The translations under genes and the position numbers were made by a program. A stretch of DNA of 64,000 nucleotides. It comes from Streptococcus tangpeifui. GTDB lineage: Bacteria > Bacillota > Bacilli > Lactobacillales > Streptococcaceae. Shown piece by piece: positions 36,403 through 53,726 of the stretch. Numbering within the stretch: position 1 is the stretch's first letter; the number at the start of each line of letters is the position of its first letter. The DNA is taken from NCBI RefSeq assembly GCF_011038795.1, contig NZ_JAAKDU010000003.1:1-64000 (forward strand). The letters are read 5' to 3'. The notes under the pieces are model-generated. The model was not told the origin of the DNA, did not search any database, and saw nothing but the letters and a program-made list of their open reading frames with translations.

Positions 36403-39402
36403 ATGCAAACGACTAGAGAAGCTGAACTGGAAAATCAGCTCATTGAACAATTGATTACAGGCGAGAGTCAGTGGAGCCTGCGTGAGGACCTACGCACAGA
36501 AGAAGACCTCTGGGATAATTTCTTTGCTAAGCTGGAGCAAAATAATACAGCTGCTCTCAACGGCCATCCCCTGACTAATCAGGAAAAGGAGCAGATCAAG
36601 GGACAGCTGGATTTTACCAGCTATTACGAGGCAGCCAAATGGCTGGTCGGTGAAAATGGGATTGCCAAGGTTGATCTCCAGCGTGAGGACGCGGCTTTAG
36701 ACAATGCCCGTCTCTCGGTCATCTGGCGTGACAATGTCGCAGGCGGCAGATCATCCTACGAAGTTGTCCATCAAGTCGTCCGCAATCGCTCAAAAGAGCT
36801 TGACCGTGACCGCAGGACAGATGTCAGCTTGCTGATCAACGGCCTGCCGCTTATCCATATCGAGCTCAAGAGTGCCAGTCATTCGACAGATGAAGCCTTC
36901 AATCAGATTCAGAAATACGACCGTGAAGGGAAATTCCGCGGCATTTTTTCAAGCATCCAGATGTTTGTCATCTCCAATAAGACCAATACCCGCTATATCG
37001 CTGCCACCAAGGCCGACAAGCTCAATAGGAAATTTCTCACCAAGTGGGTGGACGACAAGAATCAGCCGGTTGAAGAGCTTTTTACTTTCGCCCAGCAGGT
37101 CCTCTCGATTCCCCGTGCTCACCAGATGGTCATGCAGTATTCGGTGATTGATGATGATAAGAAGGCCTTGATCCTGCTGCGCCCCTATCAAATTCATGCC
37201 ATCGAGGCGGTTCAGGAAGCCAGCAAGAAGCAGGAGTCAGGCTATGTCTGGCATACCACAGGTTCTGGTAAGACCCTGACGTCCTATAAGGTAGCCCGCA
37301 ACCTTCTGCAGATTCCTTCCATCAAAAAGACCATCTTTGTGGTGGATCGCCGTGACCTAGACCAGCAGACGACCTCTAGCTTTCTGTCCTATGCCACCAA
37401 TGATGTCATTGATATTGACGAGACCGACAGTACCCACGATCTGGTCAAGCGCCTAACCGGCAATGACAAGCGCGTGGTGGTAACCACCATCCAGAAGCTC
37501 TCCACTCTCATGCGTAAGATTGATGAAGGCCGCTATAGCAAGGATACCCAGAAAATCAAGCAGCTCAAGGTCGCTTTCGTGGTCGATGAGTGCCACCGAG
37601 CAGTCACGCCTCAAGCCCATCAGGCTATCTCACGCTTCTTTGTCCATGCCCTCTGGTATGGCTTCACAGGGACACCTATCTTTGGTGAAAATAAACGCCA
37701 GCAGCTGGGCAACCTAGCGCAAACAACCGAAGAACTCTACGGTCGCAAGCTCCACGAGTATACGGTCAAGGAGGCCATTCACGATGGCGCTGTCCTAGGC
37801 TTCAAAGTCGACTACAAAAGCACCCTGCTTCTTGATGAAGGGGCTGATGAAAAAACTATCCCAGATCAAGCCTATGAAAACGAAGAACACATGCTGCAGG
37901 TCCTCGATACCATCATTAACCATTCCAAGGGGCCGCTAGGCTTTAAAAACGGCGTTGGCAAGACCTACAATGCTATCCTGACGGTCAAGTCTATCCCCAT
38001 GGCACAGAAGTACTACGACCTTATCCAGCGTATCAAAAAGGGTGAGACGACCATCAAGGTTAGCGAGTCCGTCAAGCGTGTCCTTCCAGACTTCCCCAAG
38101 GTCGCCATCACCTACTCGGTCACTGAAAATGAAGAGGATTCCCACTCGAATCAAGAGAAGATGCAAGCATCCTTGAGCGACTACAATAAAGAGTTTGGCA
38201 CCCACTTCACTATGGCTGACCTGCGCAGCTACAATACCGATGTCAACAACCGCCTAGCCCGCAAGAAGGACAAGTACCTCTTTCGAGCTGAGCAGCTGGA
38301 TCTGGTCATCGTGGTCAATCGTCTCCTGACTGGCTTTGATGCGCCCTGCCTGTCCACCCTTTTTATCGACCGAAAGCCCATGCAGCCGCAAGATCTGATT
38401 CAGGCTTTTAGCCGGACCAATCGGATCTTTGATAAGAATAAACTCCACGGTCAGATCATCACCTTTCAGGTACCAAATAGCTTCAAAGCAGCCGTCGATA
38501 ATGCCCTCCAGCTCTACTCAAACGGCGGCCAGACCAGCGTCCTAGCCCCAGACTGGGAGGAAGAAAAGGCTAATTTTGAAGTCAAGCTCACCGCCTTTCG
38601 CAGTCAGATCTCAGAAGGACCAGACCTCGGCTTGACACCAGAGCAAGCTACAACCCAAGAGCTCAAAGTCTTTGCCAAGGCCTTTCAGGAGTTTGATAAG
38701 CGCCTGGCCTCCCTCCAAGTCTACCAAGAGTATGACGAGACAGAATTCTATGCTGAATACGGTCTCAGCACAGACCAGTTAGAGACCTATATGGGCGTCT
38801 ATCAAAATGTCCTTGCTGAGCTCAAACATCGGCGCGAGGAAGAAGGAATAGAAGAAGAGGAACCCATCAACTATCTCTACGAGATCGAGTCTGTCCATGT
38901 CGATGAAATCAACTACGAGTATATTCTCTCCCTTATCCAAGCCCTGATCCCGCAGGAGGGTCAAGAAGCGGCCGACCTTTCAGACAAGGATCTCGCCACT
39001 ATCGATGACTATATCGCCAATCTCGCTAAAACCAACAGCAGCCTAGCTCAAGTCATGTCCACCCTCTGGTATCAAATCAAGAGTGATCCCGAAAGCTACC
39101 GTGGACAATCCTTGAGCGCTGTCTTAGATGAGATGGTAGCAGAGGTCATCCAAGGCCATGTCACAGAGTTAGCCAAGAAATGGTATATCGGCGAGGACGA
39201 ACTCAGCTACCTAGTCAGCCACTACCAAAAAGGCCGTAAAAAGCAAGAAGGCGAAAGCCAGCTAGCAGCCAGCCAACGCTACCAAGACTACAAAGCCCAA
39301 GTCGCAGAACCCCTCAACCCCCTCCTCTACAAAAAGAACATCAAAACTGACTATATCAACCTCATCGAAAACATCATTGAACCCCTACGACTAAGACGGT
39401 AA
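36403..39402 (+). CDS. hsdR: Type I restriction enzyme, R subunit
   Basis: 999-residue motor/nuclease subunit. The PD-ExK nuclease is at the N-terminus (Asp140, Glu154 and Lys156 in IELKS). Superfamily 2 helicase motif I is TTGSGKT (285-291), the DEAH-like box is [11 protein letters not shown]-equivalent GFTGTPIF follows, and motif VI is QAFSRTNRI. The C-terminal helical domain contacts the methylase. Length is normal and the frame is intact. It is GC-richer than the genes after it. Its partners hsdS and hsdM lie 9-14 kb downstream, separated by addiction modules and AT-rich genes. Confidence 0.95.
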
Positions 39403-39869: not shown

Positions 39870-40346
39870 ATGATCGGTGAAAATATTAAAACGCTTCGCA
39901 AATCCCTTGGTCTGACACAACCCCAGTTTGCTGAGAGGCTCGGTGTGTCACGCAACAGCCTCAGTCGCTACGAAAACGGAGCTAGTCCCGTCTCAACAGC
40001 GTTAATCGATCGCATCTGCCATGTTTTTAACGTATCCTATCTTAGCTTAGTGGGTGAGGACAAGCTCCTGACACCTGTTGAAGATTATCAGCTCACCCTC
40101 AAGATAGAAGTCTTCAAGGAACGTGCGTCAGCTGTCCTAGCAAACCTTTATCGCTACCAAGAGGCTAAAGCTATTCCTTTTGATGATGCCAGCAATCCAT
40201 GGGTCATCATGAGCGATGATCTATCAGATTTACTCAATACGCAAATCTATCTCATTAACACTTTTGAAGAGTTAGAGCGCTACACTGGTTATCTTGACGG
40301 TATTGAGCGTATGCTAGATACAGCCCATCATCAGGTGGTGGCTTGA
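39870..40346 (+). CDS. pezA: Epsilon/PezA-type antitoxin and autorepressor
   Basis: 158-residue protein with an N-terminal XRE helix-turn-helix (about 5-60: IKTLRKSLGLTQPQFAERLG, SRYENGASPVS). A helical C-terminal domain neutralises the zeta toxin. It matches the PezA layout of pneumococcal epsilon-zeta systems. It starts behind AAGGAG. The stop overlaps the toxin start (TGATG). The operator palindrome lies directly upstream. Confidence 0.92.
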   Translation: MIGENIKTLRKSLGLTQPQFAERLGVSRNSLSRYENGASPVSTALIDRICHVFNVSYLSLVGEDKLLTPVEDYQLTLKIEVFKERASAVLANLYRYQEAKAIPFDDASNPWVIMSDDLSDLLNTQIYLINTFEELERYTGYLDGIERMLDTAHHQVVA

Positions 40347-41116
40347 TGGACTTAGGTCGATACCATCAGGCAGATTTTGACCGAGCCCTCAGCCGAAACC
40401 TAGGCGCATTGACGCGAAACAAGATTTCCTCAGATAAACCGCAGGCTATCTTACTGGGAGGGCAGAGTGGAGCTGGTAAAACGACCATTCATCGGATCAA
40501 GCAAAAGGAATTTCAAGGGAATATCATTATCATTGATGGTGATAGTTTTCGCCCTCAACACCCTAACTATCTTTCTCTTCAGAAAAAGTACGGCAAGGAC
40601 AGTGTCAACTATACCAAAGGATTTGCGGGAGCCATGGTTGAAGTCTTAGTCGATGAACTCAGCCAGCGCGGTTATCATCTCCTCATTGAGGGAACCCTTA
40701 GAACCGTAGAGGTTCCCGAATCAACAGCAACTCTCCTGAAAAAGCGTGGTTATATGGTCTCGCTGGCCATTATGGCAACCAAACCTGAGCTGTCTTACCT
40801 GAGCACTCAGCTTCGCTATCAAGAGCTCTATAGCAAGGATCCTAATCAAGCCAGAGCGACACCAAAAGAGCATCATGATTTAATCGTTGACAATCTCGTC
40901 GAAAACCTAAGAGCATTAGAAGAAGCCGAGACATTCGATCGCATCCAGCTCTATCATAGAGACAAGCAGTGCCTCTATGACTCTGAACGAGATCACGGTT
41001 CTGCCTCCCGTATCCTCCAAGAGACCTTATTTGGAAACTGGACCCTAGTCGAAAAAGCCATGCTCGAGATGGAGGAAAGCCAGCTAAGAGTCTTACGTCA
41101 AAAGAATGAGACGTAA
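40346..41116 (+). CDS. pezT: Zeta/PezT-type toxin (UNAG kinase)
   Basis: 256-residue P-loop kinase. Walker A GGQSGAGKTT (38-47), catalytic Asp66 in IDGDSF, the FAGAMVE helix and LLIEGTLRTVEVP match PezT closely. PezT phosphorylates UDP-N-acetylglucosamine, blocking peptidoglycan synthesis and causing lysis. It appears intact. The ATG at 40346 overlaps the pezA stop; a TTG one codon upstream is less likely. Confidence 0.92.
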   Translation: MDLGRYHQADFDRALSRNLGALTRNKISSDKPQAILLGGQSGAGKTTIHRIKQKEFQGNIIIIDGDSFRPQHPNYLSLQKKYGKDSVNYTKGFAGAMVEVLVDELSQRGYHLLIEGTLRTVEVPESTATLLKKRGYMVSLAIMATKPELSYLSTQLRYQELYSKDPNQARATPKEHHDLIVDNLVENLRALEEAETFDRIQLYHRDKQCLYDSERDHGSASRILQETLFGNWTLVEKAMLEMEESQLRVLRQKNET

Positions 41117-41248
41117 AAAGCTGTTTTCACCAGATGGTAAAATCATGAATCTGAAACAAGATTCGCCTTTGACTCAGATATGATGAATAAACAAATGGGA
41201 GATAAAGCTTGATAGAGCAGGTGGTATAATTTTATAGCTAAAATGCCC

Positions 41249-41283
41249 AAATACACCTCATTTAGTGCGTTTTATGGTATAAT
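41249..41283 (+). promoter_or_regulatory. Degenerate copy of the pezAT operator and -10
   Basis: 41249-41272 matches the 24-bp pez palindrome at 19 positions, with the right half-site nearly intact (TTTAGTGCGTTT). TATGG and TATAAT (41278-41283) lie at exactly the same offset (29 nt) as in the pezA promoter. It drives the RelA/SpoT-domain gene. Confidence 0.65.
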
Positions 41284-41314
41284 TCCAGTGATATTGCCTC
41301 AAAGGATGTGGGTT

Positions 41315-41953
41315 ATGTTTGATGAAATTGTAAGTTTAATAAATGAAATTGGTAAGCTGCATCAAGATTTTTCACATAATTTTTTTAAGGGACATATCGC
41401 TTATAACCTGAAAAGAACTAGAGTAGACAAGGTTTTACAAGAGACCTCTTATGATGAGACTTTTATTAGTTTAGTGGATGATTATATTGAAGAACTATCA
41501 TACTGGCTTATTTTTCTTGAATTTAATTCAAAGTCTTTAATTTTGGAAACGCGTTTTAGAGGAAAAAATAAGGAGTCAGCTCTTAATAAGTTATACTATT
41601 ATCGCGTAGGAAAATCAGATCCTACAATACCTGTTCAAAAATGCTTGAATGATTTGCTTGGATTTCGCATCATTATTAATAATACGATTGATTACGATTG
41701 TCTATTGGATAAAATAAAGCGGTCAGATAAACTGAATATAAAATTATTTAGACCCTATGTTAGAACAGACGAAAACTACAAAGGTATCCATCTGTACGTC
41801 AAAAGTGATAATAACCATTATTTCCCTTGGGAAATTCAGATTTGGCAAAAGTCTGATGAGATTTCTAACGAACGTTCTCACCGAAATCATAAAGAAAAAC
41901 GCCAATATATCAATTGGACAGAAATATACAAAGAGTATCAAAGAAAGGAGTAA
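41315..41953 (+). CDS. RelA/SpoT-domain protein, likely toxSAS-type toxin
   Basis: 212-residue protein with a small alarmone-synthetase-like nucleotidyltransferase/pyrophosphokinase domain. RFRGKNKESALNKL (ATP-binding Arg/Lys and Ser), CLNDLLGFRIIIN (metal Asp in the DLxGxR block), ENYKGIHLYV (the G-loop Tyr) and PWEIQIW (Glu) followed by ERSHRNH are in order. There is no HD hydrolase, TGS or ACT domain. A single-domain synthetase followed by a Panacea protein fits toxSAS toxins, which make alarmones or pyrophosphorylate tRNA CCA ends. ATG 41315 is preferred (AAAGGA 8 nt upstream); ATG 41306 is possible. AT-rich. Confidence 0.75.
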   Translation: MFDEIVSLINEIGKLHQDFSHNFFKGHIAYNLKRTRVDKVLQETSYDETFISLVDDYIEELSYWLIFLEFNSKSLILETRFRGKNKESALNKLYYYRVGKSDPTIPVQKCLNDLLGFRIIINNTIDYDCLLDKIKRSDKLNIKLFRPYVRTDENYKGIHLYVKSDNNHYFPWEIQIWQKSDEISNERSHRNHKEKRQYINWTEIYKEYQRKE

Positions 41954-41959
41954 CAGAAC

Positions 41960-42700
41960 ATGGTTCAGCATATTATCGCTATTGCAAGTTCTTACCGACT
42001 GGGTAAGCGAATTGCTTGGCATTATACAGCCGATGTCATCTGTAAAGATGTCTTGACAGAATTAAGAGATAAAACAGACAGGCTACTAGGACGTCCAGAC
42101 TATGTCATCCATAAATTAACAACGGATTCGAAAGATTGGAGTAGTGTTGTTAATAAGGACAGCTTCTTTGCGGATTTAGAAGTCTATGATTCATTAGACG
42201 ATTTTCTGCAAGTTGTAGCTGCAGATAAAGAAATCACTGCGCTTGACATTGCTAAGTATCTCTTATCAGTACTGCCTATGTCCAACCTAAAGCTCCAAAA
42301 GATGATTTATTTAGTCTATGCGGATTATCTAACAAAGACTGGTAAAAGGTTATTTGAAGATAAGATTATTGCCATGCAGTATGGCCCAGTTATTCCCACT
42401 GTTTACGATAACTACAAAGGAAATGGTAAGGAAGAAATTGCTGAAGCTTCAGACGATAAAACAGATGTTCATCTAGACGGTATTACAGTACCTCTGACCC
42501 TTGCAAAGATGTTGCAAGCAGATGATAACCAAACCATACTAGCTTCCATTAAGGCCACTTTAGAAATATTTGGTAAGAAATCAGCAGGTCAGTTGGTGGA
42601 TATCACCCACAGAGCTGAAAGTCCATGGAGCCAGGTGAGATTATTTGATGAAATTACTGACAATATCATCTTAAAATACCATAATATCGAACTAGTTTAA
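41960..42700 (+). CDS. Panacea-domain antitoxin
   Basis: 246 residues. The C-terminal ~155 form a Panacea/SocA-like (DUF4065) domain: TALDIAKYLL, LKLQKMIYLVYADYLTKTG, QYGPVIPTVYDNY and the closing SPWSQ. The N-terminal ~85 residues are an accessory segment of the kind that gives Panacea antitoxins their toxin specificity. It starts 6 nt after the RelA/SpoT-domain gene behind AAAGGAG, so the pair is one operon. Panacea antitoxins are known to neutralise toxSAS enzymes among others. Confidence 0.75.
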   Translation: MVQHIIAIASSYRLGKRIAWHYTADVICKDVLTELRDKTDRLLGRPDYVIHKLTTDSKDWSSVVNKDSFFADLEVYDSLDDFLQVVAADKEITALDIAKYLLSVLPMSNLKLQKMIYLVYADYLTKTGKRLFEDKIIAMQYGPVIPTVYDNYKGNGKEEIAEASDDKTDVHLDGITVPLTLAKMLQADDNQTILASIKATLEIFGKKSAGQLVDITHRAESPWSQVRLFDEITDNIILKYHNIELV

Positions 42701-42940
42701 GGATATCGCTAACAAATCACTATCTTTTTCTATATTTAAGTTTCCAGCTATTTTAAAAGATATCCTAAACTATATTAGCTATCTCTCAATTTTGGCTATT
42801 TCAGGAGATAAGTCGGAGAATTCTTACATCTGTCTCTTAAAAAATAGGAAAATTAAGAGATAGAAAGAGTCAGGATATACAAAAAAACTAACCACTCTAT
42901 GTCCTAAAAACAAACACAGATATTAGTGTGAGAGAAGAAG

Positions 42941-42968
42941 CAATCCCTGTCGGTACTATCGTCAGGGA
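42941..42968. terminator. Inverted repeat between convergent genes
   Basis: ATCCCTG / CAGGGAT stem near the 3' ends of the Panacea gene and the minus-strand membrane gene. No strong T-run. Confidence 0.4.
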
Positions 42969-42985
42969 TGTTGTGTTTATTGTAT

Positions 42986-44092
42986 TCAATTTTTATTGCT
43001 TAAATATTTTCTTCTCATTTTCTTACGAGCTTCAAATTTTCTAAATTCTTTATCAATGACTCTTATTCTGAATCCAAATAATGAATCAAAACTCAAGTAT
43101 CGTTTTCCAGATTTATTACCGCTTTTTAGCATTCTATTCATAATTCCAATTAAAATAGCTGAAAATAGCACAATCACAAAAATAAGGATTAGAGATATTA
43201 TCATACTCCTAGAAGTTAAGAACCTATTACTCCAATCAATAATTGCATTTACTAGACTCCAACGATTAAACTTATTTGGCTCAATAGCAATAATTTTATC
43301 AGAGCCTTTAAAAAATATATTCATTATCCAATCAGTAACAGATTTTTTAATTTTATAAGGCAGTATTTTTTTAATAGCCATCGTTATAGCAAACGAAATA
43401 TTGACAAAAATGATATAGGCCTTTGCTATTGCATCTTTTCGTTTTTGTTCGGTTGAAATGCTAAAATCTTTTTTAATCGTCCTATTTTTAATTGTGTGAT
43501 AAAAATTTAAAAAATCATCAGAGATAAGCCAGTTTAACGAGAGTGATATTATTGTAAACAGCGCGGTTGCAAAAGTTTCATTGTGGAATAGAAACAAAAT
43601 AATCAGCAAGCATAGTTTTAGAATATTACCAAACTTATCCTGAAAGATTACTCTACTCATGTAATCAAATACGACCCAAATAGCATTTAAGTAACAATAG
43701 ATTGAAAGTATTGAAATTTCTAAAGTATGGGATTCTATATTTTTACCATAAGCTATAATTAATAGAAAAACTATATTCACTAATAAAATAAAAATGGCAG
43801 ATATGCAAAGAAGTTCTTTTGGAAATTTCAATTTACCTTCTGGCATTCTTAAAAATTTTGGTAATTGATATTCAATATCGCAAGTAATGCCTTTTCGATA
43901 AGCCCATTGAGAATAATAAAGTAGATATGATATGGATACTATAGAGGTAACCACATAAATAAAGGCATATATGAAAGAGTCTCTATTTGCAATAAAAAAT
44001 AGCGGGATGGAGCTTATTGCAGAGCAAATTCCAACTAATTTGAAGGAGCACTGAAATTTTCTGTTTAGTATATGCTTGTTCCGATTTATCAT
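42986..44092 (-). CDS. Polytopic membrane protein of unknown function
   Basis: 368 residues, not recognised. About seven hydrophobic segments are visible (near 17-34, 40-60, 92-115, 128-148, 160-195, 225-245, 300-322). The tail is very basic (FEARKKMRRKYLSNKN). It is strongly AT-rich and stands alone on the minus strand inside the restriction-modification island. Nothing ties it to a transport family by eye. Its placement suggests an accessory or defence role, but that is only context. Confidence 0.6.
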   Translation of the reverse strand: MINRNKHILNRKFQCSFKLVGICSAISSIPLFFIANRDSFIYAFIYVVTSIVSISYLLYYSQWAYRKGITCDIEYQLPKFLRMPEGKLKFPKELLCISAIFILLVNIVFLLIIAYGKNIESHTLEISILSIYCYLNAIWVVFDYMSRVIFQDKFGNILKLCLLIILFLFHNETFATALFTIISLSLNWLISDDFLNFYHTIKNRTIKKDFSISTEQKRKDAIAKAYIIFVNISFAITMAIKKILPYKIKKSVTDWIMNIFFKGSDKIIAIEPNKFNRWSLVNAIIDWSNRFLTSRSMIISLILIFVIVLFSAILIGIMNRMLKSGNKSGKRYLSFDSLFGFRIRVIDKEFRKFEARKKMRRKYLSNKN

Positions 44093-44811
44093 TACTACTA
44101 TCTCTTTAATTATTATTAATCATAATTTTATCAATTTATACTTCTTGATTCAATTACATATAAATTAACATTATGAATAAAATTCATCTATTTTGCTTAA
44201 TAAACTACATGTTATAGTGTAGTGTGTTATTATGGAATTTTTATACTATTTTGCAAATATTATAATTAGGATGTTATACAATTGATAGTAAGAGTAAGAA
44301 TAAGATATAATTAGCACGGAAATTTTGTCGTGTTCTTTTGATAGATAAAACAACAATGACCGTGATGAGGAAGTTAAGAAATTAGTTAAAAACACTTCGT
44401 TTAAAAAAGACGATAAACGATCTTTTGGAGAATATGGAGTTTATAATGCTGCTGTTACAAATAATCTTGGTTACAATCAAGATTATTACTATCATCGCTA
44501 AAACAAAAGATGTAAACGGTGTTGTCCCTGAAGAGCAGTATTTAACCGTAACAAACTAGAAAGATAGAGATTTTTTTAATTTAATTTTACGGCACCGGAA
44601 CAATTTTGTTCAACCAAATATAGCGTTGATTATGCCAAGTATGGGGAATAATTTCAAATTTCTCTTGGGGTAGCAAAATCGGTTGCTTTTAATATACTGA
44701 AAGGGGTCTAAAAACCGCGTGGTTGAGCGGTTTTTTAATTAGCTAGAAAATGAGAAACATGGTATAAAACATGGTATAATGAATGTAATTCAAGCTTGAC
44801 AGGAGGAAATT
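44093..44811. other. AT-rich gene-poor stretch with a protein remnant
   Basis: An open frame without start (about 44357-44503) reads NNDRDEEVKKLVKNTSFKKD and then SFGEYGVYNAAVTNNLGYNQ, probably a gene remnant. A terminator-like hairpin follows at 44711-44736, then a promoter TATAAT (44776-44781) for the next gene. Confidence 0.45.
44711..44736 (+). terminator. Terminator
   Basis: AAAACCGC / GCGGTTTTTT stem with T6. Confidence 0.7.
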
Positions 44812-45948
44812 TTGAAACTGCACATCTTTGATAATTTTTTGGCTAGTATATCAGTTGTAGGTGAAGTAGTGAGTTCATTAAAATGGCTCCTCTTAAAACC
44901 AATGATAAATTTCTGGAATAACAGAAAAAAGGTTTCTATTATAGATAATGGGATATACAATATTGGTAAATACTTAGGTGAAATTAAGTTACTTTCTAAC
45001 ATCTCAAACGGATATTCAAGTCCATTTCTTCATAGAGTGATTGTTGAGACTTCCAGAAAAGATAAATTTAATTTAACAGATATTAGCCTAGAAGACATCA
45101 ACTATGAAGAATATCATTATTCAGAAATTTTATATGATGGTGGATTTTTCAACGAAAATCAATATTTTACTATCGTAGGGATTAATAATGGAAATGAGGT
45201 CGGTCATAGCGATAAGATATCTATTAAATTCCAGCCTTTAAAAATTGGACAAGCTGATGGAGCTTACTCCTTAACCATTGATGTGATAAATCACGAAAAT
45301 GAGATTGGTCCTGGGGATATTCAAAGCATTTACTCAAAGAAAATTACTGATGAAAATTCAATTCTGCATTTTTTCTCTAAAAATTTTGATCAATATGATA
45401 GGCTAAAAATCATAGTCCAATTTGAGAATAACTCATGTTCCCCACTAACTAGTATCATTGTCTACGATCCAGAAAATCATTCGTTTACCGTTAATGGAAG
45501 AGGTTTTTTAGGTCCTAGTGAAAAGTATCCTTTAATGAATCTAGAAACTAGGCCTACTATTCTAAAACGACCAATTACTGTTCAGCTGAGTAAAGGCTCT
45601 AATCAAATAGATTTTTTAGTTGCTACACAAGAGGCATGTATCCTTTCTTATAATCTAGCTTTTTGGAGTGGAAAAAAGAAATTTAATACAAATTTTAAAT
45701 CAGAAATTACAGTGAAAGTTCCTCATTATACTCAAGAGGAGAATACAATATATGGAAGAATTTATGACTTTTTGGCATTCCAAGTTAAAAAGAATATTAA
45801 AATTCATGAATTCAAATATAATGCAGACTACTTGAGTTCATTAAAAAAACAAGCAAAAAAGTCTGATAATAATAATCTTTATTATGTACTTAATTTTATT
45901 TACGATTACAAAGAATTAGTCGCTAAATTCTCAGACATAAAGTTGTAA
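44812..45948 (+). CDS. Hypothetical protein, unknown function
   Basis: 378 residues, not recognised. It starts at TTG 44812, chosen because AGGAGG lies 5 nt upstream. The N-terminus has a hydrophobic or amphipathic stretch (about 10-32) that could anchor it to the membrane. The rest is soluble, rich in beta-prone segments (YSLTIDVINHENEIGPGD, RLKIIVQFENN, FTVNGRGFLGP), with a Lys-rich helical end. It has its own promoter. It is AT-rich like its neighbours. It could be part of an anti-phage module, but no motif supports that directly. Confidence 0.55.
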   Translation: MKLHIFDNFLASISVVGEVVSSLKWLLLKPMINFWNNRKKVSIIDNGIYNIGKYLGEIKLLSNISNGYSSPFLHRVIVETSRKDKFNLTDISLEDINYEEYHYSEILYDGGFFNENQYFTIVGINNGNEVGHSDKISIKFQPLKIGQADGAYSLTIDVINHENEIGPGDIQSIYSKKITDENSILHFFSKNFDQYDRLKIIVQFENNSCSPLTSIIVYDPENHSFTVNGRGFLGPSEKYPLMNLETRPTILKRPITVQLSKGSNQIDFLVATQEACILSYNLAFWSGKKKFNTNFKSEITVKVPHYTQEENTIYGRIYDFLAFQVKKNIKIHEFKYNADYLSSLKKQAKKSDNNNLYYVLNFIYDYKELVAKFSDIKL

Positions 45949-46436
45949 AAAGAAATTTTTAAAAATGGCTATTATTCCATCAAGGGATATGTGAAATCAT
46001 TTAATCGATTATTAGAGTTATTCGGAAACTAACTTATTCAGTAATTGACAATGCCACAAATAAACTAGGCTTAGCAATTGACAAAGGCGATCGGTCGCTG
46101 GGCGTTAAGTGATGACGTTTAGCATTATGATTTAGGTAGTTCATTTTGTTGACCTTCTGTCCGTTTGATCACTTACAGCATAGTCCAAATGAACTTTTTG
46201 CGGACTAAAAGAATGAATTAACGCCACAGATTAGTTTTTTATAATACAGAAGAAGTGGCAAATAAATTTTCAAAATCAATAATTGAGAGAGCATAGATTA
46301 AGCACAATGGAATTAAATAGCTTAACATATTATGAGATATAGCATTAATCATATTTTTGATAGATTATATGATGAGTCACTAACCAAAGCAGCCCAAATC
46401 AGAGGCTGCTTTTAAAATATTCAAATTTTCGAGCAA
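45949..46436. other. Gene-free AT-rich stretch
   Basis: No supported gene. It ends with a terminator-like hairpin AAAGCAGCC / GGCTGCTTT (46386-46412). Confidence 0.45.
46386..46414 (+). terminator. Terminator-like hairpin
   Basis: 9-bp stem AAAGCAGCC / GGCTGCTTT with a short T-run. Confidence 0.6.
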
Positions 46437-46575
46437 AGAAAAAAGACCCTCAAACTTTACTGAGGGTCTAAAGAACAGCTATACTAAAAAAGATAACCCC
46501 AGGCGCGTGTGAATTCTCGTCCATTGACTTACTCCCATTCGGGAACACAGCGGTAATCCTTCGAAAGCTATCTTT
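46437..46575 (-). ncRNA. Candidate small RNA
   Basis: On the minus strand TTGCTA (46605-46610), a 17-nt spacer and TATTAT (46582-46587) form a promoter. About 130 nt later the stem AGACCCTCA / TGAGGGTCT with T6 (46438-46469) forms a strong terminator. Between them there is no open frame of useful size. The transcript can fold: AAAGATA near its 5' end pairs with TATCTTT before the terminator, closing a domain with a TCCC / GGGA hairpin. No known RNA family was recognised. Confidence 0.45.
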
Positions 46576-46625
46576 AGGTGTATAATAGCATATTTTATAT
46601 TAAATAGCAAAATGGGCAGTTATGA

Positions 46626-47126
46626 CTAATGGAATTTACGACGGGGGTGATAACTCTTCTTAAATTGATCTTGTTTCTTCACTTTCTTTTTTAAAAATTG
46701 CATAAATTTTTCAGGTAGAAAATAGACTGATAAAATAGGTAAACCAAGAATCGTAATCAATAAATTAAACTGATCAAGAGCTAGGGTGTTTAGTAAGTAT
46801 ACTAATAGAATAATTAGTGTAAGTACGTAACTAGTTTTAAAAGAGCGCCTCATATCATTATGTTTCTCTAGTGAAATAAGCTTAAAGACTTCGTGAATTA
46901 AAATTTGTAATAGCATTCCTTGAAATATGATAATCAGTGCAAAGAAGAAGAACCTGTACTTAAGAATTTTAAAAATTGAAATAAGTAGCTTCATAGCTGA
47001 ATCATCTTTGGAATTAATAATAAATCCTAAAAATACAAAGGATGATAAAAAGAAAAACAATAAAAATATCTTTAGATTGTCTTTCCAGTTATTCATAAAT
47101 TCTTTAAAATGTCTTTTTAGATTCAT
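46626..47126 (-). CDS. Small polytopic membrane protein, unknown
   Basis: 166 residues with four clear hydrophobic segments (about 17-36, 58-78, 96-116, 118-136) and a highly basic C-terminus (KKKVKKQDQFKKSYHPRRKFH). Not recognised. It is AT-rich and lies just upstream, in its own direction, of the candidate small RNA. The N-terminus (MNLKRHFKEFMNNWKDNL) is cytoplasmic by the positive-inside rule. Confidence 0.55.
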   Translation of the reverse strand: MNLKRHFKEFMNNWKDNLKIFLLFFFLSSFVFLGFIINSKDDSAMKLLISIFKILKYRFFFFALIIIFQGMLLQILIHEVFKLISLEKHNDMRRSFKTSYVLTLIILLVYLLNTLALDQFNLLITILGLPILSVYFLPEKFMQFLKKKVKKQDQFKKSYHPRRKFH

Positions 47127-47311
47127 AACTTACCTCATAAATATGCTATCCGAATTATAGCATACTAAATATTAAAATAATACGACAATTATATATTGAC
47201 CTTATAAAATAAGCTCTTAATTGCTCTTTTATTTAATTGAATATCATACAATCGCATGATTATAGAGGAGGCAACCTTTTTGAAAATGAGAAAAATGGTA
47301 TAATTAACCAT

Positions 47312-47623
47312 ATGGAACAAGCCTCAAATTTAAACAATCCATTGTTTAAAATTAACGATGAGTATTTATATGAGAACACATTTGGTACGGAATGTGGATT
47401 GGTATTATCAAATACTCATTTACGATTAAATAGATTATTTAAAATGTTTAATGATAGGATCCAAAACTTAAACTATTATTATTTAGCGGATGCAAGTAGA
47501 AAACTCATTCAAATAATTGAAATCATTTTTTATCTTCATTGGCTGATGGTTGGATTCAAAGTTATGGAGCAAGTGCAAAACTCCCTGACATTGAAGGAAT
47601 ACTATTTTATGACAGGAAGGTGA
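47312..47623 (+). CDS. Hypothetical protein, probably frameshifted
   Basis: 103 residues, not recognised. ATG 47312 lies 7 nt after TATAAT (47299-47304), suggesting a leaderless mRNA. After a T6 tract (47526-47531) the reading frame gives an unlikely tail. The -1 frame instead continues with natural-looking LADGWIQSYGASAKLPDIEG and ends at 47640. The ancestral protein was probably about 109 residues and this copy carries an indel at the T-tract. A longer frame starting at 47237 overlaps the promoter and is rejected. Confidence 0.4.
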   Translation: MEQASNLNNPLFKINDEYLYENTFGTECGLVLSNTHLRLNRLFKMFNDRIQNLNYYYLADASRKLIQIIEIIFYLHWLMVGFKVMEQVQNSLTLKEYYFMTGR

Positions 47624-47683
47624 ATGAAAGTGATGCATAAGAATTTAACAGCTAGAGGAAACAGTAAGGATAACGACAATTAA

Positions 47684-48274
47684 ATGAAAGTATTTTTAGA
47701 AAATCCGCAATATCAGTTACTGTTAGTAGGTGCTGTCATATCCCTTATTTCAACACTGATTGGTATGTTTGCTCAGACACTATTTCAAAACTTCCTATCT
47801 CATAAAGGTAGGGTAAAACTCTATATCAAATCTGTCTATAGTCAGGTTAATCAAAAAGCTTGGGGATTCTATTATTTTGATACTGATATGGTATTTCAAG
47901 TCCCTTTATGGCTGGAAATACATAATACGAAGTCTGTAAGGCAAATCGTCAGAAATTTAAATTTAACTCTTTACTTGAATAATCAAAAAGTTGGACAAAC
48001 AATCCAATCGACTTCTAAGTCAAACGACACCGAAAGATATTCTTTCGGTGATGAAGGCTCGTATTCTTTTTTGATTCAAGGCAATGAGATTAAACGCTTT
48101 AATCTATACTTTATTGTTAGTAAAAAAGAATTGGATAGTGATTTCGACGAAGTCAGATTATCTTATTTTGATACTAAAGATAGGTACCATGAATTTAAAA
48201 TTTTTGATGTAATGAATCCATGGACAACTAGCAGAAATAAGATTGATGATGATTGGCGATTGATAAATAAGTAA
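47684..48274 (+). CDS. Membrane-anchored hypothetical protein
   Basis: 196 residues, not recognised. One N-terminal membrane segment (about 12-33) is followed by a soluble domain of about 160 residues with beta-rich pattern (KLYIKSVYSQV, VPLWLEIHNTKSV, LNLTLYLNNQKVGQ). It lies 16 nt before hsdS and could be co-transcribed with hsdS and the KAP ATPase gene. It may be an accessory component of the locus; nothing in the sequence says more. Confidence 0.55.
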   Translation: MKVFLENPQYQLLLVGAVISLISTLIGMFAQTLFQNFLSHKGRVKLYIKSVYSQVNQKAWGFYYFDTDMVFQVPLWLEIHNTKSVRQIVRNLNLTLYLNNQKVGQTIQSTSKSNDTERYSFGDEGSYSFLIQGNEIKRFNLYFIVSKKELDSDFDEVRLSYFDTKDRYHEFKIFDVMNPWTTSRNKIDDDWRLINK

Positions 48275-48290: not shown

Positions 48291-49394
48291 ATGATAAATC
48301 AAAACACCCCTAAACTCAGATTTAAAAATTTTGATGATGAGTGGACAACTCATCAAATTTTAGATATTGCTGATCGGTTCGATAATTTACGAGTTCCGAT
48401 TACATCATCTGACCGTAATGCTGGAAGTACACCCTACTACGGTGCCAATGGAATTCAGGATTATGTGCAGGGATTTACACATGATGGGGAATTTGTTCTA
48501 ATTGCAGAAGATGGAGCAAATGATTTAAAAGATTATCCTGTTCACTATGTTGAAGGACAGATTTGGGTTAATAATCATGCCCATGTTTTATCAGGGAAAA
48601 AAGATAAGCTTGATAATACATTTTTCAAGAATAGATTAAAGCAATCTAATTTTGAAAAGTATCTCGTTGGAGGAAGCAGGGCTAAGCTAAATGCCGATAT
48701 TTTGATGAAAATGCCAATCAAAGTTCCCTCCCTCCCTGAACAATCCGCTATCGGGGCGCTTTTCCAGACGCTTGATGAGCTCTTGTCTGCCTATAAGGAT
48801 AATTTGGCCAACTATCAAGCCTTTAAGGCGTCCATGCTGTCCAAGATGTTTCCAAAGGCAGGACAGACCACCCCTGAAATCCGCTTAGATGGATTTGATG
48901 GCGAGTGGGAAGAGAAGAAGCTGGGAGATACTTGCCAAGTCAATTCAGGTAGAGATTATAAACACCTTTCAGAAGGAAATATCCCAGTATATGGAACGGG
49001 TGGATATATGTTATCGATCAATGACAAATTATCAGATAAAGATGCTATTGGTATAGGTCGTAAAGGTACCATTGACAAACCATTTTTAATAACTGCTCCC
49101 TTCTGGACAGTAGATACTTTATTCTTTGTAACTAGTAATAATAAGACTGATTTGAATTTTCTATTTCAAATTTTTAACAGAATTAGTTGGAAAAAATATG
49201 ATGAATCAACAGGTGTACCAAGTCTATCAAAGAAGACAATTCAAATTGTTAAAGAGTACTTTCCGTCGCTTGAGGAACAAAAAGCCATCGGCGATTTCTT
49301 CTCTAGCATAGATGACTTAATTTCTTCTTGCCAAGAAAAAATTGAGCAACTAGAAACTTTGAAGAAGAAGCTCTTACAGGATATGTTTGTGTAG
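48291..49394 (+). CDS. hsdS: Type I restriction-modification specificity subunit
   Basis: 367-residue protein with two target-recognition domains, each followed by a conserved helix. TRD1 (about 1-155) ends at PSLPEQSAIGALFQTLDELL. TRD2 (about 195-325) ends at PSLEEQKAIGDFFSSIDDLI, with LKKKLLQDMFV at the C-terminus. It sets the DNA sequence recognised by the HsdM/HsdR complex. The TRDs are AT-rich while the conserved central region (about nt 48730-48900) has the GC-richer style of hsdR and hsdM, a sign of TRD exchange. Unusually, hsdS lies upstream of hsdM and apart from hsdR. Confidence 0.93.
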   Translation: MINQNTPKLRFKNFDDEWTTHQILDIADRFDNLRVPITSSDRNAGSTPYYGANGIQDYVQGFTHDGEFVLIAEDGANDLKDYPVHYVEGQIWVNNHAHVLSGKKDKLDNTFFKNRLKQSNFEKYLVGGSRAKLNADILMKMPIKVPSLPEQSAIGALFQTLDELLSAYKDNLANYQAFKASMLSKMFPKAGQTTPEIRLDGFDGEWEEKKLGDTCQVNSGRDYKHLSEGNIPVYGTGGYMLSINDKLSDKDAIGIGRKGTIDKPFLITAPFWTVDTLFFVTSNNKTDLNFLFQIFNRISWKKYDESTGVPSLSKKTIQIVKEYFPSLEEQKAIGDFFSSIDDLISSCQEKIEQLETLKKKLLQDMFV

Positions 49395-49403
49395 GAGGAT
49401 TAG

Positions 49404-51239
49404 GTGACAGGTAAATCTGAAAAAATTCAATTATCTCATATTGATACGACAGAAGCAGCTAAAAATGTTGCTAAACTTTTAGAAGAAAATAAAACCTATT
49501 TTCTAAATGGTGCTTGGGGGTCGGGAAAGACAACTTTTTTAAAACAAGTAGAAAAAGAAAAGACCAACAAGAAGAAATTTATCTATCTAGATTTGTGGAA
49601 ATTAACTGATAAGCGTTCGATTGTTGAAGTCGCCTTTTCAAAACTACATTTCTTTCTTTATTGGATTGGTAAGATCCTTTTAATATTATCAGTTGCTCTC
49701 TCATTATTATTTACAGCTCAATTCAACTTGGGATTCCAAAACTATATCAACAGAATTTTTAATAAGTATGCACAAGTTTTTATCACCAGTTTTGGCGTAA
49801 TAGCTTTAGTTGCTGCTGTCTACCAATTTTTTAAACCAAAATCAGATATTTTATATGCATGGATTTTTGATAAGCTTCCAATTTTGAATAAAATTCTAAT
49901 CATTGATGATTTTGATCGCTTAACAGAAGAACAGCAAAAAGAAGCCTATAAATTATTTGCTTTATTAAACGGAAAACTTCCAATAGTTTTTGTTGGTGAT
50001 TTTGAAAAAGTGTACGACAATACTTCTAACGATTTTCTATCAAAAATTATTGACAGAAGAATTGACTTACCTTTCGGGCTTCACCCATCAAATATTTGGA
50101 ATGAGTACTTCAAAGAACTTGAAAGCAAATTTGATACCGCTTTAACTAACGAATTCAAACAACTTTTTATAATAGAGAGACGGAATTTAAGAGATAGAGT
50201 CCATTTCAATGATTATGTGACTAAGGAATTTATTGATCGAAATAAATTTGGTCATGTACAAGTAGAACAATTGCTCGTAGCAATATACATTTATTTATTT
50301 TACCCAAGCGGATATATAAAACTATTTAACGATGAAATACCATACTTACTGCCAGAAGAAGAACTTGGAGATGATAGTTTTCCTAAAATTCTTAAGGTGC
50401 TCTTAGGAACAGATATTAACCAAATTCCACTAGACTTTATAAAAAATAAGAAAGATTACTACATTTATGAGTCACCAAGTAATATGACAAACGAAGAATT
50501 GGCAAATATTTTTGAGAATGAAGATATACTCAAAACATGTATCGCTAATTCTGATATTGTCAGTGATTTCTATATTTACCTTCAAGATCAATATGATAAT
50601 CTTTCTGAAATTACGAAAATGCTGATTCTCAAAATTACTTTAAAAGAACTTGCTATAAATGGTAATGTGAGTTTTTCTGTAGACTTTATACTTAGGAGAG
50701 TGACTGAAGAGCATATTAAAACTAATGGTGAAGTTAATAAAGAGTCTAGCTTTGAAAAGTTATTATATATTTTTTGGAAAAAAAGACTTGAAGAATTTAA
50801 AATTAACGACTATAGTATCCTACTATTTATATTAGTAACTTACTGCAATTTCTCCAATAATATATTTGATCACATTGATTTAGACTTACCAGAGCTATCA
50901 ATAGCGAATTTTAAAACATATCAGTTTAAGTTATTATACCTAGATAGATATTCTAAAGATCATTGGGATTCTTGGAAAGATATGGAAGAAAAATTTTGGG
51001 AAGCTGTTAATTCTTTAAGTGATGATGATTTTATTAGATATTGGGCTGATCGAGATATATTGAGAGAAGTTGAGTTTAATATCTTCCAATTCAATCTCGA
51101 TCAGAATAGCGATGGACCATTTATTTTATCTCATATTAAACAAAGGATTGATTCATTAAAGAAAAGTAATTTCATCGTGAAAATTAATAAATCCGACTCT
51201 GACGAATTACATTTAATATCTCACACATCTTTTGAATAA
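49404..51239 (+). CDS. KAP-family membrane P-loop NTPase
   Basis: 611 residues. Walker A GAWGSGKT (36-43) and Walker B ILIIDDFDRL (164-173) are separated by two membrane segments (about 82-105 and 123-142), the hallmark of KAP NTPases. LPIVFVGDFEKVYDN resembles the sensor region. The C-terminal ~380 residues are helical and unassigned. KAP proteins include the phage-exclusion protein PifA. It begins at GTG 49404 behind AGGAGG, 9 nt after hsdS, so it is coupled to the specificity subunit. AT-rich. A membrane-linked defence role is the natural inference. Confidence 0.8.
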   Translation: MTGKSEKIQLSHIDTTEAAKNVAKLLEENKTYFLNGAWGSGKTTFLKQVEKEKTNKKKFIYLDLWKLTDKRSIVEVAFSKLHFFLYWIGKILLILSVALSLLFTAQFNLGFQNYINRIFNKYAQVFITSFGVIALVAAVYQFFKPKSDILYAWIFDKLPILNKILIIDDFDRLTEEQQKEAYKLFALLNGKLPIVFVGDFEKVYDNTSNDFLSKIIDRRIDLPFGLHPSNIWNEYFKELESKFDTALTNEFKQLFIIERRNLRDRVHFNDYVTKEFIDRNKFGHVQVEQLLVAIYIYLFYPSGYIKLFNDEIPYLLPEEELGDDSFPKILKVLLGTDINQIPLDFIKNKKDYYIYESPSNMTNEELANIFENEDILKTCIANSDIVSDFYIYLQDQYDNLSEITKMLILKITLKELAINGNVSFSVDFILRRVTEEHIKTNGEVNKESSFEKLLYIFWKKRLEEFKINDYSILLFILVTYCNFSNNIFDHIDLDLPELSIANFKTYQFKLLYLDRYSKDHWDSWKDMEEKFWEAVNSLSDDDFIRYWADRDILREVEFNIFQFNLDQNSDGPFILSHIKQRIDSLKKSNFIVKINKSDSDELHLISHTSFE

Positions 51240-51395
51240 TATTATGAGATAATAAAGAGGTGAGTTAGTAAAGATTTATTCCCCTTAAAAAGGAGCATCC
51301 ATATAACTCCATACGGTATTCGTTCAAAAGGATTTGCTGACACTAGAAGGATCGACACGTGACAGGCATTATAAGTTGCCATCACCTCACTAAAA

Positions 51396-51443
51396 AATCC
51401 GCTCATAATCCGCTTAAAATCCGCTCATTTTTATGAGCGGATT
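51396..51443 (+). repeat. Three 11-bp-spaced iterons plus one inverted copy
   Basis: AATCCGCTCA (51396-51405), AATCCGCTTA (51407-51416) and AATCCGCTCA (51418-51427) repeat every 11 bp. TGAGCGGATT (51434-51443) is an inverted copy that makes a 10-bp hairpin with the third. They lie between the KAP gene and hsdM. Helical phasing suggests a protein-binding array; the hairpin could also terminate transcription. Confidence 0.6.
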
Positions 51444-51514
51444 GCGAGATATTTCTGGTAACAAGTATTTTTTCCATTGACAATGAATTTAAATATTAAA
51501 TTAGAAAGACAATT

Positions 51515-53119
51515 ATGACTGAAACAACCCCTACCTCACAAGCCCTCTATCAGGCGCTTTGGAATTCAGCGGACATCCTCCGCTCCAAGATGGATGCTAA
51601 TGAGTACAAGTCCTATCTCTTAGGTCTAGTCTTTTACAAGTATCTCTCAGACAAGATGCTTTTTGAAGTCGCTAAGACCATGCAGGAGCCGACCGATGAT
51701 TTGGAGCAGGCGCTTGAGCTCTACCGCAAGTATTATGCGGATGAGGAGACTCATGAGGATCTGATCGACGTCCTCATGGATCAGCAATCCTATGTCATTG
51801 AGCCCGATCTGACCTTTACAGCCCTGATCACTGCCATCAATGACGGGACTTTCCAGCTGGAGTTCCTAGCTCAGGGCTTTCGCAATATTGAGCGCAGTGA
51901 TGACCTTTTTGAAAATCTCTTTGAGGACATTGACCTCTACTCTAAAAAGCTGGGCGCAACGCCGCAGAAGTAGAATCAAACCATTGCCAGTGTCATGAAG
52001 GAGCTGGCTGATCTGGATCTTGCCGGTCATGCCGGTGATATGCTGGGTGATGCCTATGAGTACCTGATCGGTCAGTTCGCCTCGGACTCAGGTAAAAAAG
52101 CCGGCGAGTTTTACACGCCTCAGCCTGTAGCCAAGCTCATGACCCGCATTGCCCTGCAAGGGCGTGAAGACAGGCAGGGTTTTAGCCTCTATGACCCGAC
52201 CATGGGCTCTGGCTCCTTGCTGCTCAATGCCAAGAAGTACAGCAACCAGCCAAACACAGTGACCTACTATGGTCAGGAGCTCAATACCTCGACCTACAAT
52301 CTGGCTCGTATGAACATGATTCTGCATGCTGTCCCTGTTGAAAACCAGCACCTCAACAACGGTGACACACTGGATGCCGACTGGCCGGATGAGGAGCCGA
52401 CTAACTTTGACGGCGTCCTCATGAATCCCCCTTACTCAGCCAAGTGGTCTGCGGACTCTGGTTTCCTAGAGGATCCCCGTTTTTCGCCTTATGGTAAGCT
52501 AGCGCCCAAGTCCAAGGCTGACTTTGCTTTTCTCCTGCATGGCTTTTACCATCTCAAGCAGGACGGCGGGGTCATGGCTATCGTCTTACCCCATGGGGTT
52601 CTCTTCCGTGGCAATGCTGAAGGGCAGATCCGCCAGCACCTCCTAGAGGAAGGGGCTATCGATACGGTTATCGGTCTGCCGGCCAATATCTTCTTTAATA
52701 CCAGCATTCCGACCACGGTCATTATTCTTAAGAAAGACCGTACCAATCGTGATGTCTACTTTATCGATGCCTCAAAAGAGTTTGACAAGGGCAAGAATCA
52801 GAACATCATGACGGATAGCCATATCGAGAAGATTCTGGACGCTTATACTCAGCGTCGTGATATGGACAAGTTTGCCCATCTAGCCAGCTTTGAGGAGATC
52901 GTCGAAAACGACTACAATCTCAATATTCCCCGCTATGTCGATACCTTTGAGGAAGAAGCAGTTGCCCCGCTGCCAGATATCATGGCCGACATAAGCAAGA
53001 CCAACCAAACCATCACTGAGAAATCTGCCCAGTTGGAAAACCTCCTCAAAGACCTGCGCGGTACCACCCCGGAAGCACAAGCCGAGCTGGACGAGTTTTT
53101 GAAAGGGTTGAAACTGTAA
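51515..53119 (+). pseudogene. hsdM: Type I methyltransferase subunit, interrupted by an amber codon
   Basis: The N-terminal helical domain (51515-51973, ALYQALWNSADILRSKMDAN, GLVFYKYLSDKML) ends at TAG 51971-51973. The same frame continues NQTIASVMKELADLDLAGHA into the catalytic domain, open to 53119. Motifs GEFYTPQPVAKLM, DPTMGSGSLL (SAM site) and NPPYSAKW (adenine target) are intact. A single CAG-to-TAG change would explain the break. ATG 51995 is in frame but has no ribosome-binding site. Without readthrough or restart no full HsdM is made, and neither modification nor restriction would work. Confidence 0.88.
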
Positions 53120-53230: not shown

Positions 53231-53479
53231 ATGGCAACTATTACATTGAAAGTCTCTGAAGCAGATAAGACATTTATGAAAGCCATGGCAAAGTTTGAAG
53301 GGGTCTCCCTGTCTGAATTGATTCGCAACAAGACCATAGAATCCCTAGAGGATGAATACGATGCCCATGTCGGTGAGTTAGCCTATCAAGAATATCTAGA
53401 TGACCTCAAAGCAGGTCATGAGCCAATGAGCTGGGAGGATATGCTAGCTGAACTTGATTTGGAGGATGATCTTGTATAA
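53231..53479 (+). CDS. relB: RelB-family antitoxin
   Basis: 82-residue protein with an N-terminal ribbon-helix-helix-like part (ITLKVSEADKTFMKAMAKFE, VSLSELIRNKTIESLEDEYD) and an acidic tail (MLAELDLEDDLV) that wraps the toxin. Strong AGGAGGAAA site. It overlaps the toxin gene at its 3' end. With RelE it forms a type II addiction module at the end of the restriction-modification island. Confidence 0.9.
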   Translation: MATITLKVSEADKTFMKAMAKFEGVSLSELIRNKTIESLEDEYDAHVGELAYQEYLDDLKAGHEPMSWEDMLAELDLEDDLV

Positions 53480-53726
53480 GTTGGTTCCGACTAAAAGGTT
53501 TATCAAACAGCTTAAAAAGCTAGATAAGTTTACGCAAAAGCGAATCACAGCTTACTTATCCTCACATGCTCTGGATGATCCAAGGCAGTACGGAAAAGCT
53601 CTTAGTGCTAATCGCACTGGTCAATGGCGGTATCGCATTGGTGATTATCGGGTCATCTGTCAGATTCAAGACCAGGAATTGATCGTATTAACCTTGTCAG
53701 TTGGCCACCGACGCGATATTTATTAA
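53472..53726 (+). CDS. relE: RelE-family mRNA interferase toxin
   Basis: 84-residue RelE/ParE-fold toxin: YKLVPTKRFIKQLKKLDKF, LSANRTGQWRYRIGDYRVI, and the C-terminal SVGHRRDIY with basic and Tyr residues typical of RelE ribosome-dependent cleavage. TTG 53472 is chosen because GGAGG (53461-53465) lies 6 nt upstream. ATG 53466 directly abuts that site and would add only two residues. It appears intact. Confidence 0.88.
   Translation: MYKLVPTKRFIKQLKKLDKFTQKRITAYLSSHALDDPRQYGKALSANRTGQWRYRIGDYRVICQIQDQELIVLTLSVGHRRDIY

Follow-up and report, generated by a model that had tools for sequence, protein, structure and literature searches.

A gene for a KAP-family membrane P-loop NTPase (KAP), located at positions 49404–51239 on the plus strand of the window (the 64,000-nt stretch of Streptococcus tangpeifui DNA that was analysed), was found between hsdS and hsdM of a type I restriction locus. 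With a probability of about 0.62, we consider KAP to be a self-sufficient, single-gene anti-phage membrane NTPase of the exclusion or abortive-infection type and an interchangeable cargo of this hsdS–hsdM slot. Its reading as a stand-alone defence cassette is based on the position and the replaceability of the gene, and we infer its anti-phage activity and mechanism by analogy.

The type I lineage concerned occurs in dozens of Streptococcus species and provides a natural experiment with two cassettes of almost separate repertoires. The sharply bordered second cassette (slot 2) alternates between PARIS, Kiwa-like, CBASS, KAP and other genes, making KAP, which is covered by no model of PADLOC 2.0.0, a strong candidate for a one-gene defence system. 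The other unnamed slot genes are defence candidates too, and with the two-slot lineage it can be examined whether back-up systems for restriction are preferred in slots of this kind.

The KAP gene and its host locus

The locus in the window starts with hsdR (36403–39402, plus strand, 999 aa), followed by about 8.9 kb of cargo, hsdS for the type I specificity subunit (48291–49394, plus strand, 367 aa), KAP and hsdM (51515–53119, plus strand). Two features of the locus had been absent from the earlier note. One is an in-frame TAG at 51971–51973 which divides hsdM into parts of 152 and 374 aa, and the other is a gap of 275 nt between KAP and hsdM (51240–51514), constituting the right-hand end of slot 2. 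The TAG may be a real stop or a sequencing error, and the type I enzyme may be silent in the window strain. hsdR, hsdS and KAP are open although hsdM carries the TAG; in Streptococcus sobrinus DSM 20742 (L025), hsdM is open and encodes 533 aa.

The KAP open reading frame has a GTG start and encodes 611 aa; its extent and its start 9 nt after the hsdS stop were exactly as previously described. A Shine-Dalgarno-like AGGAGG, read from the sequence at 49393–49398 (plus strand), overlaps the hsdS stop codon.

Domain composition and predicted structure of KAP

Assignment to the KAP family was confirmed by a profile search, in which Pfam KAP_NTPase (PF07693) matched residues 18–223 (E 1.3e-13, 51.3 bits against a cut-off of 20). 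Searching the window's own genome at E 0.001 retrieved the window protein alone. In an alignment of this protein with 13 relatives, Walker A (GAWGSGKT, G36–T43, encoded at 49509–49532) and the Walker B strand with its DDFDR motif (residues 163–172, ending in IDDFDR172, 49890–49919) were largely invariant.

It is a feature of the KAP NTPase family that a pair of membrane helices interrupts the stretch from Walker A to Walker B. The two spans claimed at this place were recovered in a 19-residue hydropathy scan of the window protein, in which residues 85 and 125 mark distinct maxima exceeding 1.6, and exactly two peaks were present in all 14 aligned proteins. Combined with the AlphaFold model, the scan places helix 1 at residues 83–103 (49650–49712) and helix 2 at residues 121–142 (49764–49829).

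The AlphaFold model (pLDDT 75.1) shows an AAA+-like part up to about residue 346. The top structural match was RdrA of RADAR (Z 12.6, rmsd 4.2, 263 residues, KAP span 6–346), with MuB and ORC just behind at Z 11.0–11.6; the likeness to RdrA may thus be that of AAA+ proteins in general. Apart from one viral protein that bears a KAP annotation, fold searches with the full model retrieved AAA+ relatives of a generic kind, and a sequence search against solved structures gave nothing below E 0.35 and no match to RdrA.

The earlier note had described the C-terminal 380 residues as belonging to no nameable family. This held insofar as no Pfam family exceeded the cut-off past residue 223; since the AAA+-like part of the model reaches to about residue 346, the stretch without a family is nearer 265 residues in length (residues 347–611, 50442–51236, mostly helical, the supposed sensor). 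A search for a named effector at the C-terminus gave sub-threshold matches only in Pfam, NCBIfam and PADLOC. Submitted alone to a fold search, this part yielded a best Foldseek E of 0.3 and a best Z of 6.0, which does not demonstrate a new fold because its model is weak (pLDDT 64.5). Overall identity of the window protein is 36–41% to 12 relatives and 28% to the thirteenth; for residues 322–611, identity to the same 12 drops to 22–26%, and this faster divergence of the C-terminal part would fit a sensor.

In seven pairs of KAP relatives with and without hsd, the window copy not being among them, dN/dS was 0.15–0.31, implying that the gene is not a chance open reading frame. By these ratios, the relatives are under purifying selection.

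Recurrence of KAP between hsdS and hsdM

A relative of KAP at E 1e-10 or better was detected in 22 of 284 Streptococcus genomes, the window's own being counted. In thirteen of the 22 (genomes are designated G, locus stretches L), its place is the hsdS–hsdM interval of one and the same type I lineage; the proposed link of KAP with hsdS was thus found by the adjacency survey to recur. Among the remaining nine, G122, G231 and G203 have KAP without adjacent hsd genes, at a chromosomal site that elsewhere (e.g., in G014) holds the hsd locus. G126 has a broken copy, located upstream of a different hsdM, KAP is a fragment in G180 and G056 and runs to the contig end in G190 and G021, and in G216 it is open, with no hsdS or hsdM match in the surrounding 20 kb. 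Three of the 13 hsd-linked copies are broken (G035, G200 and G051), which implies that KAP is dispensable in some hosts.

A short-pattern scan of genome contigs returned a single locus, from S. sobrinus, the same as that of G200. With a KAP subfamily profile, at strict E thresholds and with few candidates scored per genome, seven of 395 genomes of an order sample were positive at E 1e-30 (six of the window's genus, one of another), as was one of 398 genomes of a phylum sample at E 1e-20, namely the window's own. Phage records gave no match to KAP at E 1e-5.

In G122 and G231, KAP adjoins a gene for a ResIII-type helicase of about 880 aa (more than 92% alike), which may be a partner; in G126 the helicase gene lies about 1.3 kb upstream of the broken KAP. 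The helicase genes are located at 10913–13558 in L028, 11532–14177 in L030 and 4427–7060 in L041.

Two cargo slots in a streptococcal type I lineage

The locus set consisted of the 13 KAP loci and 60 stretches around an HsdM at least 78% identical to that of the window, giving 72 rows, of which 71 have hsdS and hsdM. Outside this count of 71 are L050 (one of the 60 stretches, representing the second contig, or half, of the locus in G053), L061, whose contig stops short of hsdS, and G165 and G219, which matched only in part. Open reading frames were called with a simple longest-ORF script from 80 aa for slot genes (70 aa in the control), and slot families were named on one representative per BLAST cluster.

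The gene order hsdR–[slot 1]–hsdS–[slot 2]–hsdM was present in the 64 of 71 loci where hsdR was found. The seven exceptions comprise five stretches that a contig end truncates, plus L081 and L096, in whose 17 kb no hsdR was seen. Slot 2 was filled in 65 loci and empty in six. Besides KAP (13 loci), it contains a fused PARIS (16), PDC-S34 (13), PDC-S61 (18), a HigBA-like pair (7) and a Kiwa-like pair (6), the Kiwa label relying on KwaA models for the first gene, with the partner gene matching no family. Rarer contents were a 196-aa unknown family (4 loci), DUF6119 (2), CBASS with a NUDIX-2TM effector and a cyclase (2), a 192-aa family (2) and single unknowns, and several loci have more than one occupant in slot 2. 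The earlier note had named the lack of a recurring association with defence genes, together with a lack of effect on phage infection, as refuting its proposal; such an association was found, with PARIS, Kiwa-like, CBASS and toxin-antitoxin-like genes occupying the same slot in other species.

Slot-2 genes are oriented uniformly, 107 of 108 open reading frames lying on the hsd strand. The distance from the hsdS stop to the first of them has a median of 10 nt, and in 58 of the 65 filled loci it is no more than 30 nt or the two overlap. PDC-S34 (HAD-like) and PDC-S61 flank KAP in L036–L038, and L039 has PDC-S34 alone ahead of it; elsewhere both are adjacent to each other and KAP is missing.

At least one open reading frame of 80 aa or more was present in slot 1 of 68 of the 71 loci. 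Families in this slot include SIR2-HerA, an AbiP2-type reverse transcriptase, Tmn, AbiH-like, ApeA, PDC-S06, PezAT, a RelA_SpoT–Panacea pair, DUF6261 and others. Of 48 clusters present in at least two loci, one, the 196-aa family, was common to both slots, and the repertoires of slot 1 and slot 2 are almost separate. The commonest slot-1 cluster, with 17 loci, is a family of about 269 aa (e.g., L038, 4943–5752) whose one tested member matched DUF6261 and which no PADLOC model matched; it is a candidate defence gene.

As a control, 20 loci with a more distant HsdM were analysed, 18 of which have the order R–S–M (HsdM 74–77% identical). In this sister lineage, slot 2 was filled in two of 18 loci: L123 has a Kiwa-like pair there, and L127 a 248-aa gene belonging to a slot-1 family. 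Among the other hsdS–hsdM gaps, some extend up to 857 nt without a called open reading frame. The difference in filling (65/71 versus 2/18) corresponds to P 5.5e-11, not corrected for kinship. A slot-2 singleton, the 329-aa gene of L097, has a relative between hsdR and hsdS on the opposite strand in five sister loci, which makes the separation of the slots a feature of the studied lineage and not a law. The sister loci L121, L131, L133, L134 and L136 show a gene of about 413 aa on the opposite strand between hsdR and hsdS.

Borders and probable exchange of slot 2

To the left, slot 2 is sharply bordered. In 1,924 pairs of loci that differ in slot-2 content, identity per 10-nt block was 0.72–0.89 over the final 90 nt of hsdS and 0.30–0.37 over the first 40 nt past its stop. 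At the right border, inspection by eye showed that similarity resumes in most rows some 15 nt upstream of the hsdM start.

The distribution of slot-2 content was compared with an HsdM tree, which was built with a quick method from 71 rows including 12 of the 13 KAP loci (L029 was left out because of too little hsdM) and which is to be read with the provision that hsdM may itself recombine. The KAP label changed 10 times on this tree compared with a mean of 11.2 for shuffled labels (88 of 500 shuffles being as low), and at least four of the changes are forced by well-supported branches; judged by the tree, KAP loci are scattered. For all slot-2 labels, 42 changes were counted against a shuffled mean of 46.9, with 7 of 200 shuffles as low. 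By the same measure, slot-2 content as a whole is slightly clustered and not fully random, which counts against the exchange reading. KAP was found together with PARIS, the Kiwa-like pair or CBASS in none of its 13 loci, where about 4.4 were expected (P 0.0024); for PARIS alone the P value was 0.025, neither value being corrected for kinship.

Recombination in the flanking hsd genes would be a natural exchange mechanism. The option of a hitch-hiking exclusion gene, raised in the earlier note, gains support from the finding of interchangeable slot cargo, with exclusion itself presumed.

KAP without hsd and hsd without KAP

The flanks of the site in G203 are about 94% identical to those in G014; in G203, hsdR, hsdS and hsdM are absent and KAP is kept, adjoining 375 nt that match slot-1 DNA of G014. 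No hsdS match was obtained in the whole G203 genome. The KAPs of G122, G231 and G203 form a group with those in slot 2 of G229 and G169 (support 98/97), and dN/dS was 0.15–0.31 for KAPs without adjacent hsd, compared with 0.21–0.26 for hsd-linked pairs. KAP is broken beside open hsdM and hsdS in G035 and G200, with hsdR being open too in G200; the window and G167 show the opposite state, an open KAP next to a broken hsdM. KAP and the enzyme are separable also in that 58 of the 71 loci of the HsdM lineage are without KAP.

Outside Streptococcus, relatives were retrieved from 52 plasmid records (32 Enterococcus, 18 Lactococcus and 2 Lactobacillus), of which 40 are predicted to be conjugative or mobilizable. 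The KAP stretches of nine plasmids, some of which are near copies of one another, gave no match to the hsd queries. In eight of the nine (L115, L116, L118 and L140–L144, not L117), a gene for a Y-family DNA polymerase is found no more than about 2.5 kb from KAP, and a recombinase gene is often near as well.

Proposed mode of action and rival explanations

By its anatomy, KAP would be a membrane-anchored AAA+-like switch. It would be translated from the hsd transcript, and its slot would be refilled by homologous recombination in the flanking hsd genes. The helical C-terminal part may sense a phage product, upon which an ATP-driven rearrangement of the membrane-anchored core would damage the membrane and stop the infection, in analogy to PifA of plasmid F.

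The earlier note had seen in the tight link to hsdS a possible sign of a combined defence unit; on such a reading, KAP would serve as a working subunit or membrane anchor of the type I enzyme. The 9-nt distance and the Shine-Dalgarno-like box overlapping the hsdS stop agree with such a unit, yet unrelated slot-2 genes show the same spacing, KAP is present in only 13 of the 71 loci of the lineage, hsdM and hsdS are open next to the broken KAP of G035 and G200, and KAP exists without hsd in G203 and on plasmids. A combined HsdS–KAP unit was rejected because the spacing is common to unrelated slot genes and the two are separable both ways, and a subunit role is very improbable. That KAP serves mobile elements, for example by exclusion of incoming plasmids or by conjugation control, and was captured by the hsd slot is an unlikely proposition, albeit one for which the 52 plasmid records, largely of predicted transferable plasmids, and the neighbouring polymerase genes speak; in Streptococcus, however, KAP shares its slot with named anti-phage systems.

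A rather unlikely alternative is that KAP guards the restriction enzyme in the way of PrrC or PARIS. It would be silent as long as the type I enzyme is active and be set free, or switched on by an anti-restriction protein of the phage, and the hsdS–hsdM slot would collect such second-line systems. PARIS (AriAB) and PrrC are reported second lines behind restriction, and PARIS, which a passage of PMC9122126 describes as triggered by the anti-restriction protein Ocr, occupies the slot of KAP in 16 of the 71 loci. The fusion matches AAA_21 and AriAB models and not KAP; for KAP, an anti-restriction trigger is hypothetical. The uniform orientation of slot 2 is in line with a guard, but a guard would hardly be expected under purifying selection where no hsd gene adjoins (G122, G231 and G203, the last without any hsdS match), on plasmids, or open beside a broken hsdM as in the window and G167, and the slot also houses CBASS, Kiwa-like and toxin-antitoxin-like genes. 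It is unlikely as well that the slot is a dedicated second-line position in which many unrelated systems fire once a phage disables restriction, with KAP as a new single-protein, membrane-killing member triggered by anti-restriction like PARIS.

Relation to known systems

For comparison, a plasmid F protein was used which we take to be PifA from its place beside pifC and from general knowledge. It shares with the window protein the PF07693 domain (E 3.2e-43 in PifA, 1.3e-13 in KAP) and the Walker B region (hhalign probability 94.5%, KAP residues 158–223), and hhalign detected no likeness beyond the NTPase domain. The best PADLOC match of KAP was likewise the PifA model, covering residues 34–90 only (E 2.5e-4). 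Like PifA, relatives of KAP occur on plasmids; the window gene comes after hsdS and not after a pifC gene. The detected likeness to PifA is thus restricted to the shared KAP domain; close orthology was rejected because the likeness stops there, and on sequence grounds KAP would not be a PifA group member in the narrow sense.

Passages of PMC9311878 describe PifA, the best-studied bacterial KAP protein, as membrane-associated, activated by T7 gp10 and gp1.2, and affecting membrane integrity with loss of ATP; a passage of PMC8594841 also names membrane depolarisation, and states that PifA acted on very few phages and that its evolution as an immunity system is questioned. Phage exclusion was suggested earlier for a lactococcal KAP on pGL5 in PMC3387028, and pGL5 is among the plasmid matches of this analysis. 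By analogy, KAP probably works like PifA.

Genes inserted into type I loci are of a known kind, represented by rlo and mlo of Campylobacter, TgvAB and DarTG2. Campylobacter jejuni, which belongs to a phylum different from that of Streptococcus, has the same two insertion places. Its open reading frames were named rlo if inserted between hsdR and hsdS and mlo if inserted between hsdS and hsdM (Miller et al. 2005, cited after PMC5183652), and KAP, lying between hsdS and hsdM in hsd orientation in 13 loci, would be an mlo gene. Presumed points of difference from Campylobacter are the many streptococcal occupants that match named defence systems and the near-separation of the slot repertoires. Tested defence systems embedded in type I loci are, according to passages of the respective papers, TgvAB of Vibrio cholerae (PMC11411939, PMC12409362) and DarTG2 of Escherichia coli (PMC12255303); the last also uses the term 'guilt-by-embedding', pointing to a preprint of Payne et al. 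KAP would resemble both in being embedded as an independent system; they belong to other protein families and are located between hsdR and hsdS instead of hsdS and hsdM.

Tmn (YobI-type) proteins share with KAP the character of a transmembrane P-loop NTPase of defence loci, and in G229 a slot-1 Tmn and a slot-2 KAP coexist. The slot-1 Tmn proteins comprise 1,154–1,340 aa compared with 611 aa for KAP, and an identity of KAP with Tmn was rejected, as no Tmn profile matched at E up to 1 and hhalign with one of the slot-1 Tmn proteins aligned the Walker A stretch only (probability 14.6%). A study of the S. suis immune repertoire (PMC12479173) lists PARIS, Kiwa, CBASS and Tmn; in its main text, the terms 'KAP' and 'embedded' are absent. 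In PMC7159879, no KAP protein was found, the term appearing only in author names and a reference. A published description of the streptococcal two-slot lineage, or of KAP within it, was not found among open-access full texts, as represented by listings, abstracts and passages.

Further cargo of the locus in the window

Slot 1 of the window (39870–48274) contains PezA/PezT, a RelA_SpoT and Panacea pair, several unknown open reading frames and an orphan 196-aa open reading frame. The PezA/PezT (epsilon/zeta) pair lies at 39870–41116, about 0.5 kb downstream of hsdR. A small RelA_SpoT protein followed by a SocA/Panacea protein is encoded at 41243–42700, presumably resembling a toxSAS–Panacea toxin-antitoxin system, and relatives of both are present in slot 1 of L040 and L048. 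The 196-aa protein (47684–48274) has a relative in S. sobrinus (L025, 6482–8727) that comes after an AbiP2-type reverse transcriptase. The window copy lacks a neighbour of this type, and the family occurs in slot 2 of four other loci. Just 3' of hsdM, at 53231–53726, an antitoxin-like open reading frame of 82 aa overlaps a gene for a ParE/RelE-type toxin.
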